Virus record (IMG/VR): IMGVR_UViG_3300013120_000098 | Location: 1 to 32,695 of that record | Source of the DNA: a virus | Strand: one strand, 5' to 3' | Length of the DNA: 32,695 bases | Shown here: positions 6,360-24,067 of the stretch, piece after piece | Position numbering within the stretch: the stretch's first letter is position 1 | How the letters are laid out: each line of letters starts with the position of its first letter | The notes under the pieces: model-generated | Seen by the model: the letters and a program-made list of their open reading frames with translations, nothing else | What the model was told of the DNA's origin: nothing | The model's database searches: none | Program-made: the position numbers and the translations under genes

Positions 6360-6680
6360 AACCTACTAATACTACTATCCGGGCTACTAACAAACCTACT
6401 ACGCTAGAAAAGGCCCTTTTTGGTAGTAAAAACAAGGGCTTAGCCCAACCTACTAACATTACTAATAGGGGTACGGGGGGGGGCCCCGGACAGGCCCCGG
6501 GAAGAGGCCTCTCGAGCGTCATAAAACGAATAAGCGTCCGAACCCCCCGCCCCCCCCAGTGTAATGCTAGTAGGTCGTGGTAAATAAGTAAAAAAATATA
6601 ATAATAATAATAACTTAGCCTATTTATATATTACTAATGAATGCTACTACAACCTACTACAAATCAAGCCCAACCTACTA
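6360..6680 (+). repeat. Iteron array AACCTACTA
   Basis: Five perfect 9-bp direct repeats lie at 6360-6368, 6393-6401, 6447-6455, 6651-6659 and 6672-6680. Imperfect copies sharing TACTA occur between them. Two copies are 21 bp apart (about two helical turns) and another pair is 33 bp apart (about three), as expected when protein monomers bind on one face of the helix. Confidence 0.75.
6581..6637. other. AT-rich block, candidate DNA-unwinding element
   Basis: About 57 bp made mostly of A and T, with repeated ATA units, sits between the left and right iteron groups. In a GC-rich genome this is the most easily melted stretch of the window and suits strand opening at an origin. Confidence 0.6.
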
Positions 6681-6712
6681 CAATCGAAAATCAGGGGCCT
6701 TTTGGTACTTAT

Positions 6713-7480
6713 ATGTCGGATCATGAATCGAATACGCAATGGTGGCTTTCCAAGTCTGATATTTATTGGACCCAGGCTGAACTCAGACAGTTGAAGGACG
6801 ACGTACCTGATCTTGATGAGTACTGGAAAATCTTCACCCTGTACGAGGACCCGTATGAATATACGCCCGGTCTGATAAGCCAGCACCAGGTCCGACGTCT
6901 AATCTTGCTTGATAGCGTCCAGCCCGAGTGCTGGTATGACAGCAATCCGGTCGTTGCAGACAGCGGAGCTTTCGTGCCTCGATCCGCGGTGGCCGCGATC
7001 GGCAAAATGTGCATCCCGTACGGAGTTGCTGTCGTCTTCGACCAGGGCCGTCTGTCATACATCGGACGCCGCGAACCGGTTGAGATGATAAAGGAACTCA
7101 TCCAGGGAATGGCCAAGCGATGCCGGTCCATGCAGAGTATCCTCCCACGGAGGCCCGGCGTGCGTCGCAAGCAACAGGTCGCTGATTGGTGGAGCGTCTT
7201 CGACCAGGAAGCCAAGTTCATCCTGGACCTGTACGCCGAAGAGCTTCGCTTCATGCCGACCAGCGTCCTGGAAGGTTATCGCCGTCGGGTGTCCCTGCTC
7301 AAACTTCAGCATGCTGTCTACCAGGTCCATCAGGGCTTCCGCAACTGGGAACCGCCAGAGGGTTCGCCCGAAGTCGTGTTGAAGCCTGTTGACGACGGTG
7401 GCCGTTTGCTGGGCGGAGTGGTCTGGCGCCTGGATACCTACGAGACCCAGGAGGGTCTAACATTTTTAGGACTGGGTTAA
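6713..7480 (+). CDS. Hypothetical protein following the origin
   Basis: The 255-aa product starts MSDHESNTQWWLSKSDIYW. The frame is open back to ATG 6641, but the extra 24 residues are encoded by the iterons (QPTTNQAQPTT), so the later start is preferred even though its ribosome-binding site is weak. The protein is rich in Trp, Tyr and charged residues. It has a likely alpha/beta N-terminal half and a helical C-terminal half with RRKQQVADWW and RRRVSLLKLQHAVYQ. No signal peptide, membrane segment or known motif is visible. Adjacent position suggests replication or its control. I do not recognise the family. Confidence 0.75.
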   Translation: MSDHESNTQWWLSKSDIYWTQAELRQLKDDVPDLDEYWKIFTLYEDPYEYTPGLISQHQVRRLILLDSVQPECWYDSNPVVADSGAFVPRSAVAAIGKMCIPYGVAVVFDQGRLSYIGRREPVEMIKELIQGMAKRCRSMQSILPRRPGVRRKQQVADWWSVFDQEAKFILDLYAEELRFMPTSVLEGYRRRVSLLKLQHAVYQVHQGFRNWEPPEGSPEVVLKPVDDGGRLLGGVVWRLDTYETQEGLTFLGLG

Positions 7481-8614: not shown

Positions 8615-8636
8615 GGCCCGGGAGACCGGGCCTTTT
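8615..8636 (+). terminator. Rho-independent terminator with GAGA tetraloop
   Basis: GGCCCGG and CCGGGCC form a 7-bp stem closed by a GAGA tetraloop and are followed by TTTT. It closes the unit of small genes that begins at 7761. Confidence 0.8.
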
Positions 8637-8697: not shown

Positions 8698-9069
8698 ATG
8701 ACCTATTACCACGAGACCAGGAAGGACGCCGAAGCCAAGGCAGCGCAGTTCTCCGAGCACTTCCATACCAAGGCTGAGCTTGAACCATATAACGGCTGGG
8801 TGATCGTCCTCGTGCCCAAGAGCGCTGACGTACTGAAGTGGCCCTTGGCCGACCTGCTGGATCATGCCGAGATTGAGTTCCCGACCAGGCTGAGCAAGCA
8901 CCGTCGCGAGAAGGTCCGCCCACCGAAGATCGAGAAGGACAAGCCTGCCAGGAAGGCTCCGCCACCACCGCCTCCCCCGCCACCTCCGCCAAGTGGAGCG
9001 ACGGTGGCCGCTCCTAAGCCTGTGGCGCCTCCGCCACCTCCTCCTAAACCACCGGTACCTGCTACATGA
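8698..9069 (+). CDS. Hypothetical protein with polyproline tail
   Basis: This 123-aa protein has a folded-looking N-terminal domain (MTYYHETRKDAEAKAAQFSE to about residue 70), a basic stretch, then 11 consecutive prolines and a second run of six. The Pro codons are mixed CCG, CCA, CCT and CCC, so the run is not simple DNA slippage and appears selected. Such tracts form stiff rods and stall ribosomes unless EF-P acts. The start follows AAGCAAAGGAACGGACC. The stop overlaps the next gene's ATG (ATGA at 9066-9069), so output of the NusG-like protein may depend on translation through the tract. No function can be named. Confidence 0.8.
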   Translation: MTYYHETRKDAEAKAAQFSEHFHTKAELEPYNGWVIVLVPKSADVLKWPLADLLDHAEIEFPTRLSKHRREKVRPPKIEKDKPARKAPPPPPPPPPPPSGATVAAPKPVAPPPPPPKPPVPAT

Positions 9070-9614
9070 AGTTCTCTGTCTATTCGTGCCGTCTTACTTT
9101 CGAGCTATGCACCGAGGCCAAGCAAGCGGGGTTCCAGCATGTTTGGACCCCGCATCGTCTTGCCAGGAAGCTGCGATCGCCTAAGAACCGGTTCCCGTAC
9201 GTCGAGGAAGTGTGGGAAGCCGCCGTGCCTGGCTACGTGTACGGACCGGCCAAGGACCAGGCCAGGTTCAGGAACTGGTGCCCAGCCAAGTTCAACCTGT
9301 CCCCGCTCACTGAGTTCTATGGTCCGCCTGGCTTGCCCAAGCACCTTCATACCAACTTCATTCGAGCCGCAACCGTCGATCTGGAAGACCTCCAGGATCA
9401 CGACGCCGCGGTGCGAGCCCTGCACCGGCTGCTGGATGCCAGGCCTGCCCGGCCTGAGTATAGCCCAGGCGACGTCGTGGAGCTTGAGCACGCTGGCGCA
9501 GTGGTACAGGGCGTGATCCACAATTTTAAAAGTAACAACCGCGTGAGAATTAGAATTAGCCTCGGCTTTATTACTACCAATCTAAATCAGATTAAAAAAG
9601 TGGTTAATGGATAA
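9066..9614 (+). CDS. NusG-like transcription elongation/antitermination factor
   Basis: The 182-aa product has the outline of a NusG/RfaH-type protein. An N-terminal domain begins MKFSVYSCRL and reaches a WEAAVPGYVYG motif (50-60) that matches the conserved PGYVFV of NusG N-terminal domains. A linker leads to a C-terminal KOW-like barrel with YSPGDVVELEHAGAVVQGVI (132-151). NusG paralogues bind RNA polymerase and change pausing and termination. Its gene is the last before the promoter of the 23-kb structural operon, so it is a good candidate for the late antiterminator. The 3' end is AT-richer than the rest. Fold recognition by eye is moderately sure; the role is inferred. Confidence 0.65.
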   Translation: MKFSVYSCRLTFELCTEAKQAGFQHVWTPHRLARKLRSPKNRFPYVEEVWEAAVPGYVYGPAKDQARFRNWCPAKFNLSPLTEFYGPPGLPKHLHTNFIRAATVDLEDLQDHDAAVRALHRLLDARPARPEYSPGDVVELEHAGAVVQGVIHNFKSNNRVRIRISLGFITTNLNQIKKVVNG

Positions 9615-9633
9615 AATTGATGAAAAATCACGG

Positions 9634-9662
9634 TTTACTTAAAACAGGCCCCAACCTATATT
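9634..9662 (+). promoter_or_regulatory. Late promoter TTTACT-17-TATATT
   Basis: TTTACT (9634-9639) and TATATT (9657-9662) are 17 bp apart, in the gap before the small terminase gene. No other clear promoter is seen in the structural region, so this probably drives the late operon. Confidence 0.7.
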
Positions 9663-9665
9663 CAG

Positions 9666-9740
9666 TATAAGCTAATTGCACGCGGAGCGGCGATAAGGCG
9701 GATTGGACAGGTTTTGAGCCCTGTCTGCAACGCGGGGGAA
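9666..9740 (+). promoter_or_regulatory. Structured late leader RNA, possible antitermination site
   Basis: The leader between the late promoter and the terminase gene contains GACAGG/CCTGTC (9706-9711 and 9720-9725) with an 8-nt loop. It is bracketed by TGCACGCGG (about 9678) and TGCAACGCGG (about 9726). A structured leader at the head of a long late operon, next to a NusG-like gene, suggests a recruitment site. The function is inferred. Confidence 0.35.
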
Positions 9741-9765
9741 AGACACTTTAGAGGAAGTCAACCAA

Positions 9766-10242
9766 ATGGGATATGCAGAGCAGTTACTGACCGGCCGTCA
9801 GCGCAGCACGCTTTATACCGATCCTGGCGACTTTCTCATTGCCGCGGCCGATTACTTCCAGTGGTGCGAGGATCACCCCATCCTGGAAGAACAGGTCAAC
9901 GTCTGGCAGGGTAGCGTCGTACGAACCGACCTCAAGAAGTGCAGGGCCTTCACCAAGACCGGCCTGGCCAATCACCTGGGTATCCCGGTCAGTCGCTTGA
10001 CCACCTACAAGGAGAAAGGCGACGACTGGGCAGAGGTCATGGCGCTCATCGAGCAGGTTATCTACACCCAGAAGTTCGAGCAAGCCGCGGCTGGCACCCT
10101 GAACGCCAGCATCGTGACTCGCGACCTGGGCCTGGCAGACAAGCAGGACTTCTCCTCGTCCGACGGTACCATGGCTAGCAAGCCGACGGTCATTGAATTC
10201 GTTTCACCTGAGATTGATGAAAATGACGACGGCGACAGCTAA
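9766..10242 (+). CDS. terS: Small terminase subunit (P22 gp3-like)
   Basis: The 158-aa protein resembles the gp3-type DNA-packaging family: a YFQWCEDHPI motif, a KKCRAFTKTGLANHLG helix-turn-helix, and VIYTQKFEQAAAGTLNASIVTRDLGLADK near the C-terminus, which closely parallels P22 gp3. The small subunit forms a ring, recognises the packaging site and stimulates the large subunit. GAGGAAGTC precedes the ATG. Its end overlaps the large-subunit gene. A gp3-type recogniser would fit headful packaging from a pac site, but no cut site is visible here. Confidence 0.9.
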   Translation: MGYAEQLLTGRQRSTLYTDPGDFLIAAADYFQWCEDHPILEEQVNVWQGSVVRTDLKKCRAFTKTGLANHLGIPVSRLTTYKEKGDDWAEVMALIEQVIYTQKFEQAAAGTLNASIVTRDLGLADKQDFSSSDGTMASKPTVIEFVSPEIDENDDGDS

Positions 10243-11491
10243 GGCACCGGTCAAGGTTCAAATCCAGGAGATACCGAAGATCACCCGAGCGTTCGCCAAG
10301 CCGGCGTACACTCGGGTCTTCCGCGGTGGCCGAGGCGGAGGCAAGACCCAGGCGATCGCCAAGCGGACTGCCCTGAGGATTTACCAGCTTGCCGAAGTCG
10401 GCGTCGAAGGCGTCTACCTCTCGTCGCGTGAGCACCTCAACTCGCTTGACGAAAGCTCTATGGCCGAAATCAAACAAGCTATCAAGTCTGAGCCCTTCCT
10501 GGCCGACTACTTCGAGCTTGGTGAGAAGTACGTCAGGACCAAAAACCGACGCATTTCATATGCGTTCACTGGCCTCCGTACGAACCTGGACAGCATCAAG
10601 TCCAAGTCGCGTATCGTAGGCAATTGGACGGACGAGGCCGAGAACGTCTCAGACGCAGCCTGGCGCAAGCTCATCCCGACTATCCGCTCGGAAGGACCCG
10701 AAGGCGGTGGCTGGTACGCCGAGAACCTGATTACCTACAACCCTGAGTCGGAGCACAGCGCGACGCATCAGCGGTTCGTCGCTACCCCTGACGATCATAC
10801 GATCGTGACGGACATCAACTGGCGGGACAATCCCTGGTTCCCGAAAATCCTGGACATCGCGCGGCTCAACGACATGAAGCTGCGCCCGGATACATACGAT
10901 CACGTCTGGGAAGGCGCGTTCCTCACTCTGACCGAAGCTCAGATCTTCCGGAACAAATACCGGGTTGACGAGTTCGAGGTCAAGGAAGGCTGGCAGGGCC
11001 CATATTACGGTATGGACTTCGGCTTCGCCAAGGACCCCACGACGGCCGTGGAATGCTGGATAAACGGGAACACCCTGTATATCCGGCGCGACTGCGGTAA
11101 GGTCGAGCTAGAGCTTGACCATACCAGCAAGTTCTTCAAGGACAGGCTGCCAGGCATTGAACGCTTCGTGACACGCGCCGACTCCGCTCGGCCTGAGTCC
11201 ATCAGCTATCTCAAGCGCCATGGCCTGGCTCGCATGGAGAGCGTGAAGAAATGGCCTGGCTCGGTCGAGGACGGCATTGAGTTCATCAAGAGCTTTGACG
11301 AGGTGGTCATTCATCCCGACGCAGAAGGTACTGCCAGGGAGTTCAGGCTCTACAGCTACAAGGTCGACCGGTTGAGCGGTGACATCCTGCCCATCGTGGT
11401 GGACGATCACAACCACTATATCGACGCAATTCGATACGCCCTTGCGCCGATGATGAAGCGCTCTGGCTACAACCTCAAAGGGATTTTCTGA
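10217..11491 (+). CDS. terL: Large terminase subunit
   Basis: This is the packaging motor, an ATPase plus nuclease docked on the portal. Counting from ATG 10217, Walker A is GGRGGGKT (37-44) and Walker B ends in TDEAE, with D139 and E140. The nuclease domain shows YGMDFGFAKDP (D267), an internal RADSARPE (D322) and HNHYIDAIRYAL (D403), the acidic residues expected for RNase H-like metal binding. At 424 aa it has normal length. A longer frame from TTG 10193 is possible but starts deeper inside the small-subunit gene. Its stop overlaps the portal ATG. Confidence 0.95.
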   Translation: MKMTTATAKAPVKVQIQEIPKITRAFAKPAYTRVFRGGRGGGKTQAIAKRTALRIYQLAEVGVEGVYLSSREHLNSLDESSMAEIKQAIKSEPFLADYFELGEKYVRTKNRRISYAFTGLRTNLDSIKSKSRIVGNWTDEAENVSDAAWRKLIPTIRSEGPEGGGWYAENLITYNPESEHSATHQRFVATPDDHTIVTDINWRDNPWFPKILDIARLNDMKLRPDTYDHVWEGAFLTLTEAQIFRNKYRVDEFEVKEGWQGPYYGMDFGFAKDPTTAVECWINGNTLYIRRDCGKVELELDHTSKFFKDRLPGIERFVTRADSARPESISYLKRHGLARMESVKKWPGSVEDGIEFIKSFDEVVIHPDAEGTAREFRLYSYKVDRLSGDILPIVVDDHNHYIDAIRYALAPMMKRSGYNLKGIF

Positions 11492-22841: not shown

Positions 22842-23477
22842 ATGGCCGTCACTTTTCCAATCAGTGCCGATGACTTCTTCAAGGCGCTGCCAGTCACCGA
22901 TATGACTTTCACGCTTACCGATCAACGAGCCTCTGCATCCACACGCAGAGGTGAGTTGATTATCTCCGACAGTGGAGACCAGCTTTGGGAAGGAACGGTC
23001 ACACTTGACATCCAGGACTCAATAGAACTTGAGCGGGTCTACGCTTTTGCTGAATTGCTTAAGCTACCTGAAGCGTCGTTCATGGCTGCGCCTATTCACG
23101 TTTCTCGGTCGTTCCCTGGCTCCACCCCAAAACTATCCGCAGTCAGGAACGGAAATGAGATTAAGATTAATGGGCTGGCACTGGGCACCGTAATTGAGCC
23201 CGGTTCTTTTCTGTCATTTCAATACGGGTCAAATCCGGTTAGGCACGGCCTTCATCAAGTTGTTGCTTTTGACGACGAGACTATTGGTGTTTCGGGCGAA
23301 ACAACTTATTTGCGTGTTGTCCCCAATGTGGCTCCAGGCTATACTCTTAATAACGCAGTGAAACTAGCCAATCCTGAATGTAAAGCGATCATGGAGCCTA
23401 ATAGCCTGGCACCTGTTTCGTTTACCGGCGAAAAGGGTAACGCTTGGTCGTTTAGGTGGAGACAGACAAAACGATGA
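22842..23477 (+). CDS. Distal tail / tail-tip protein
   Basis: The 211-aa beta-rich protein follows the tape measure by one base. It opens with MAVTFPISADDFFKALPVTDMTFTL and has QLWEGTVTLDIQDSIELER and KLPEASFMAAPIHVSRSFPG. Position between tape measure and hub genes points to the distal tail ring that joins the tube to the tip. GC content looks lower than in the tape measure gene. No catalytic motif is visible. The family is not certain. Confidence 0.7.
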   Translation: MAVTFPISADDFFKALPVTDMTFTLTDQRASASTRRGELIISDSGDQLWEGTVTLDIQDSIELERVYAFAELLKLPEASFMAAPIHVSRSFPGSTPKLSAVRNGNEIKINGLALGTVIEPGSFLSFQYGSNPVRHGLHQVVAFDDETIGVSGETTYLRVVPNVAPGYTLNNAVKLANPECKAIMEPNSLAPVSFTGEKGNAWSFRWRQTKR

Positions 23478-24067
23478 ACTGGGGTGCTTCAGCCATTTCT
23501 TTCCTCGCAGCGGGTGGACCGATTTCGGTCCGCTCGCTTATCTATTTTCAGCCTAAACAATTTGGCACTACAATCCTTGAGCCGTTCGGGTTCTGGACAG
23601 GCGGAGACCATAGGACATTTGTCGTTAACGGTGAAAGCCGCTTGTACTACGGGGCCCAGGGTCAGCTAGCTATCCCGGCCACCGTTGAAGAGGGTGGCAC
23701 GACAATCCAGAACTTCAGCCCGTCAATGCTCATCCCACCGGAGGCCGAGACAATGGCCAGGGGATACGACCTGACCAACTGCCCGGTTGAAGTGCACTGC
23801 GCGCTGTTCAACCCGGTCGGGAACGCCTTGGTAGAGATTGCTAGCCAGTTCAAAGGGTATATTGATACGTACCTGATCACGTCGGGAGCCGAAGGTAATC
23901 CGTCCCGTATCGACTTTGACATCAAGAGCAGTGCACGGCGTGGAACCAAATCCTCCAGTGCTCACAAGTCTCACCAAAGCCATAAGCTCAGGGACGCCAA
24001 CGATGAATTCCGTAAATACTCCGACCTTGGAAACGCGATGGCCGATACGTGGGCGTACGCGGATTGA
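23474..24067 (+). CDS. Tail-tip/hub protein
   Basis: ATG 23474 overlaps the previous stop (ATGA) and gives 197 aa. The protein begins MNWGASAISFLAAGGPISVR. It has strands typical of hub components (LYYGAQGQLAIPATVEEGGT, NCPVEVHCALFNPVG) and ends with a KSHQSHKLRDANDEFRKYSD motif common in siphovirus tip proteins of this position. It should sit between the distal tail ring and the fibre. Assignment rests on order and general pattern. Confidence 0.7.
   Translation: MNWGASAISFLAAGGPISVRSLIYFQPKQFGTTILEPFGFWTGGDHRTFVVNGESRLYYGAQGQLAIPATVEEGGTTIQNFSPSMLIPPEAETMARGYDLTNCPVEVHCALFNPVGNALVEIASQFKGYIDTYLITSGAEGNPSRIDFDIKSSARRGTKSSSAHKSHQSHKLRDANDEFRKYSDLGNAMADTWAYAD

Follow-up and report, generated by a model that had tools for sequence, protein, structure and literature searches.

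Phages are known to achieve antitermination through Q, N, p7 or put RNA, and among these lambda Q and Xp10 p7 act on the elongating polymerase and are encoded directly before the late block. The 182-aa protein considered here, which is encoded by a virus record of 32,695 bases (the window), has its gene likewise directly before the late genes; no similarity to any such antiterminator family was found, however, and its predicted fold points to NusG. RfaH is a NusG paralog that is recruited to a leader element (ops) and aids long operons, and it is among the top Foldseek matches of the 182-aa protein; it differs in working in trans on cellular operons, and the leader of the window has no ops-like site. 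LoaP of Bacillus velezensis is a NusG paralog for the long dfn/mln operons, and both the hairpin and the terminator of the leader have been put to experimental test in that system (PMC12691694). The window resembles this system in its probable NusG paralog and long operon, and a leader with hairpin and intrinsic terminator is shared by the phage relatives L238 and L241–L245, whereas LoaP is bacterial, serves polyketide operons and uses a UNCG hairpin; the leader of the window lacks a terminator, and a UNCG loop is missing from its hairpin.

In the available parts of two reviews, NusG-type factors are described as cellular or plasmid regulators only (PMC7819879, PMC6391919), and our literature search found no paper on phage NusG or tying a NusG antiterminator to phage terminase and late genes. 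A NusG-like phage gene is not a lone oddity, as PHROGs and viral UniProt already hold phage NusG/RfaH-like proteins. These comprise phrog_6386 and phrog_25909 (“transcription antiterminator”) and the RfaH/NusG antiterminator entries of viral UniProt, all of them named by similarity, and no experimental paper on any of them was found. They are likewise phage-encoded NusG-like proteins; the 182-aa protein is too diverged to match either PHROG.

The 182-aa ORF (9066–9614, + strand) starts with an ATG that overlaps the stop codon of a 123-aa ORF (8698–9069, + strand) as ATGA; the latter has a proline-rich C-terminus and no Pfam or PHROG assignment. This small operon is preceded by an intrinsic-terminator-like hairpin on the + strand (8615–8632, GGCCCGG-GAGA-CCGGGCC followed by TTTTCATG, −15.9 kcal/mol). 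Downstream, the late block opens with genes assigned by Pfam and PHROG to the terminase small subunit TerS (9766–10242, +; GP3_package, phrog_606) and the terminase large subunit TerL (10193–11491, +), and gene annotation places the rest of it, all co-oriented, at 11491–32434 (+), with portal, protease, decoration, major head, head morphogenesis, major tail, tape measure, distal tail and endolysin-like genes. The ORF is real, and since TerS and TerL are followed by co-oriented head and tail genes up to 32434, it does lie directly before a long late operon, as had been claimed, the block measuring about 22.7 kb where 23 kb had been given. In the middle of this block, within a tail-protein ORF (23456–24067), lies a terminator-like hairpin stronger than any other on the + strand, a perfect 13-bp stem (23509–23538, −24.4 kcal/mol) followed by TATCTATTTT.

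Searches of Pfam, PHROGs and PDB sequences returned no match for the 182-aa protein, including none to antiterminators of the lambda Q or N type in Pfam or PHROG; the profiles PF02357 and phrog_6386 both missed it, and tblastn found no relatives in phages, IMG/VR or GTDB genomes. A profile was built from 46 NusG-family proteins of related loci and genomes. In hmmsearch with this profile the 182-aa protein scored 11.6 bits, which placed it first among 3,818 ORFs and higher than any of 1,000 shuffles; hhalign gave a probability of 84% and a score of 38.0, compared with 24.4 for the best of 200 shuffles and 24.3 for the best of 1,717 other ORFs. The alignment, which joins residues 15–178 to positions 17–166 of the 166-position profile, is collinear, includes the PGYV motif and the hinge region and continues past the GDxV motif as far as the final strand. 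When nine further phage NusG-like proteins were added to the profile, the signal fell to 38% (score 28.6, with shuffles reaching 18.3) and the protein dropped to rank 4 in hmmsearch; with a phage-only profile it was outranked by a tail-like ORF of L007, a hit rejected as a false positive. The N-terminal half alone matched NusG at only 8.5%, although the full-length profile match does cover the NGN part.

The predicted structure was consistent with the profile result. A single-sequence AlphaFold model was useless (pLDDT 38), whereas AF2 with an alignment of nine sequences, eight of them relatives and NusGs among these, gave a mean pLDDT of 63, with an NGN-like order of strands and helices at low confidence in the N-terminal half and a five-stranded KOW/Tudor-like barrel at the C-terminus (encoded by 9453–9602, +; pLDDT about 82–94 over most of it, NusGs being in the alignment). 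The probable architecture is thus an NGN domain (residues ~1–100), a linker and a KOW barrel (~130–178). Foldseek placed NusG (4.8e-5 and 4.8e-4) and RfaH (2.4e-3) at the top of the PDB matches of this model, and its first and third viral matches are annotated as RfaH and NusG antiterminator. The barrel alone was less discriminating: in VIA-align it matched many Tudor folds equally, and among the 50 matches listed there were no NusG chains except Spt5/DSIF entries. Because NusG sequences entered the AF2 alignment, the model is not independent of the profile result. The NusG-like reading of the first-pass annotation survives the objection named there, a predicted fold unlike NusG, though at the strength of remote homology, and the PGYVY motif and KOW-like C-terminus it had pointed out are both present. 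We consider it likely that the 182-aa protein is of the NusG type, and profile and model together suggest a very diverged phage protein probably of the NusG/RfaH/LoaP kind.

The leader between this gene and TerS (9615–9765) was less distinctive than the protein. The end of the gene, including the end of the KOW domain, falls in a stretch of 31% GC (9521–9670), which is one of the two most AT-rich of the window; the most AT-rich, 6521–6730, with 29% GC at its lowest, lies around the gap before a 279-aa ORF. Within the former stretch, the putative “only clear late promoter” is a site on the + strand, TTTACT-17-TATATT (9634–9662), that agrees at 9 of 12 positions. From 7.8 to 18.2 kb it is indeed the sole match on the + strand, and its position makes it plausible, but its score is at chance level, such matches occurring in the window at the chance rate (5 found vs 4.9 expected). 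A similar outcome was obtained for the leader hairpin (9698–9733, +), in which an outer 3-bp and an inner 8-bp stem can be formed but with ordinary stability (z −0.72; 26% of 51-nt windows are equally stable), and for the two near-repeats TGCACGCGG (9677–9685, +) and TGCAACGCGG (9726–9735, +), each of which occurs once in the window, in the leader, but which are not significant, an equally good gapped repeat being found in 125 of 500 shuffled leaders. Repeats and hairpin were accordingly rejected as specific signals, neither exceeding chance. No intrinsic terminator was found in 9615–9765, Rfam recognized no family in the window or in the leader, and ops-like sites were at chance level in the window and absent from the leader.

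A clearer picture emerged from other phages. Among the relatives of TerL, a co-oriented NusG-like gene was found upstream in L009, L031 (identical to L091), L041, L089, L100, L111, L056/L084 and L224. In L009 it directly precedes a TerS gene, as in the window, and its product matches phrog_6386 (6.6e-5), as do those of L031 and L041; in the virus record of L056 it lies about 5 kb upstream of the terminase. Two isolated phages also encode NusG-like proteins, annotated as hypothetical, just before the terminase, namely Bradyrhizobium phage ppBjS10J-1 (L238, 4384–5016, WAX24484.1) and Synechococcus phage MinM1 (L239, 4387–5016, UXQ89129.1). An intrinsic terminator is situated between the NusG-like gene and the terminase in L031, L041, L089, L100, L111 and L238. 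Terminators upstream of the terminase are also common where there is no NusG-like gene (20/53, vs 5/6 with one, p 0.04), and for this reason a random-segment test (P 5e-8) was rejected as stand-alone proof from the leader terminators.

The leaders of L224 (6753–6777) and L238 (5277–5301) have a 25-nt element in common, TTTCACCCGCCGGGKGGCTTGTGTC, which does not occur in the window. When IMG/VR was scanned blind for exact copies of this element, six other contigs were retrieved (L240–L245). One of them, L240, breaks off at the element and was left out of the upstream count; in each of the five others a NusG-like ORF on the same strand (E 1e-20 to 1e-23) ends 77–250 nt before the element. All six carry an intrinsic terminator (−14.5 to −25.4 kcal/mol) 22–54 nt beyond the element, and in each the first ORF above 250 aa thereafter encodes a terminase, either of the phrog_38 or of the phrog_2 type. 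L224 has the element with no terminator close behind, unlike L238 and L240–L245. Conservation extends beyond the searched word into its flanks, AAATC and GGCCGGT being examples. Some of these contigs are fairly close relatives, with proteins 81–89% identical, and across the element-bearing phages the identity of the NusG-like proteins goes down to 43%. As the element follows NusG-like genes across two terminase families and down to this identity, gene and element travel together. That they stay paired while the terminase changes is the behaviour expected of a factor and its site; conservation of neighbours alone is no proof of mechanism.

A phage NusG-like protein that acts on its own late leader is thus well supported as a module, one that seems to be genuine and to recur among phages and that is comparable with LoaP. 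We infer that the window uses this module, of which it is probably a diverged example with a leader that is not readable so far. The window itself provides the ORF, the gene order, the remote NusG similarity and the predicted KOW barrel; the clear NusG-like gene, the conserved leader element and the intrinsic terminator before the terminase come from the relatives only, and nothing in the window ties the 182-aa protein to the leader. The first-pass proposal of a viral NusG paralogue acting on its own late leader thus gains support from other phages, but not from the leader of the window, which is at chance level and has no terminator.

The best explanation, which we hold with moderate confidence, is that a NusG/RfaH/LoaP-type protein loads on its own leader and sustains late transcription. 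The 182-aa protein would be made ahead of the late genes, its NGN-like N-terminal domain would bind host RNA polymerase, loading would take place while the polymerase crosses the leader between the protein's own gene and the terminase, and the polymerase would then be kept going through the 22.7-kb head and tail block despite pauses, Rho or terminators. NusG proteins can associate with elongation complexes independently of any site, and such binding, together with a window leader that has neither a terminator nor a distinctive element, would suit a protein that acts on host polymerase generally, by blocking host NusG or Rho or by host shut-off. We regard this as unlikely, since in many phages a NusG-like gene occupies the same position directly before the terminase, and NusG-like genes are followed by a leader element across different terminases.

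Position also counts against an unrelated phage protein with a small C-terminal KOW/Tudor-like barrel and no NGN domain, for example a nucleic-acid-binding or packaging accessory protein, the gene being placed as NusG-like genes are elsewhere. The poor match of the N-terminal half alone, the low confidence of the model there and the equal fit of the barrel to many Tudor folds would agree with such a protein, whereas the collinear full-length match, with PGYV motif and hinge and far above 1,717 decoys, would not, and we judge it unlikely as well. More doubtful still is late control at initiation, with the NusG-like gene merely the last of an early operon: the 31% GC block does carry the only promoter-like site nearby, yet initiation from it leaves unexplained why other phages repeatedly combine a NusG-like gene with a leader element and a terminator. 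Returning to a NusG-like factor acting on its leader, we tentatively propose, at just short of an even chance, that many phages start their late genes through their own NusG-like factor, which would load on a cognate leader element immediately behind its gene and read through a terminator situated ahead of the terminase, and that the window represents a fast-diverged branch in which the leader differs and an intrinsic terminator is lacking. If this is true, a phage NusG-like gene with a conserved leader and a terminator before unrelated terminases would be a further solution to antitermination, and the better-preserved relatives suggest a little-studied phage route for switching on late genes.

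Finally, among the relatives, a sequence block was noted whose core did not turn up elsewhere in the phages and genomes searched: two Aureimonas prophages share a conserved noncoding stretch of about 40 nt directly 3′ of the NusG-like gene (L031, 3760–3805; L089, 4270–4315).
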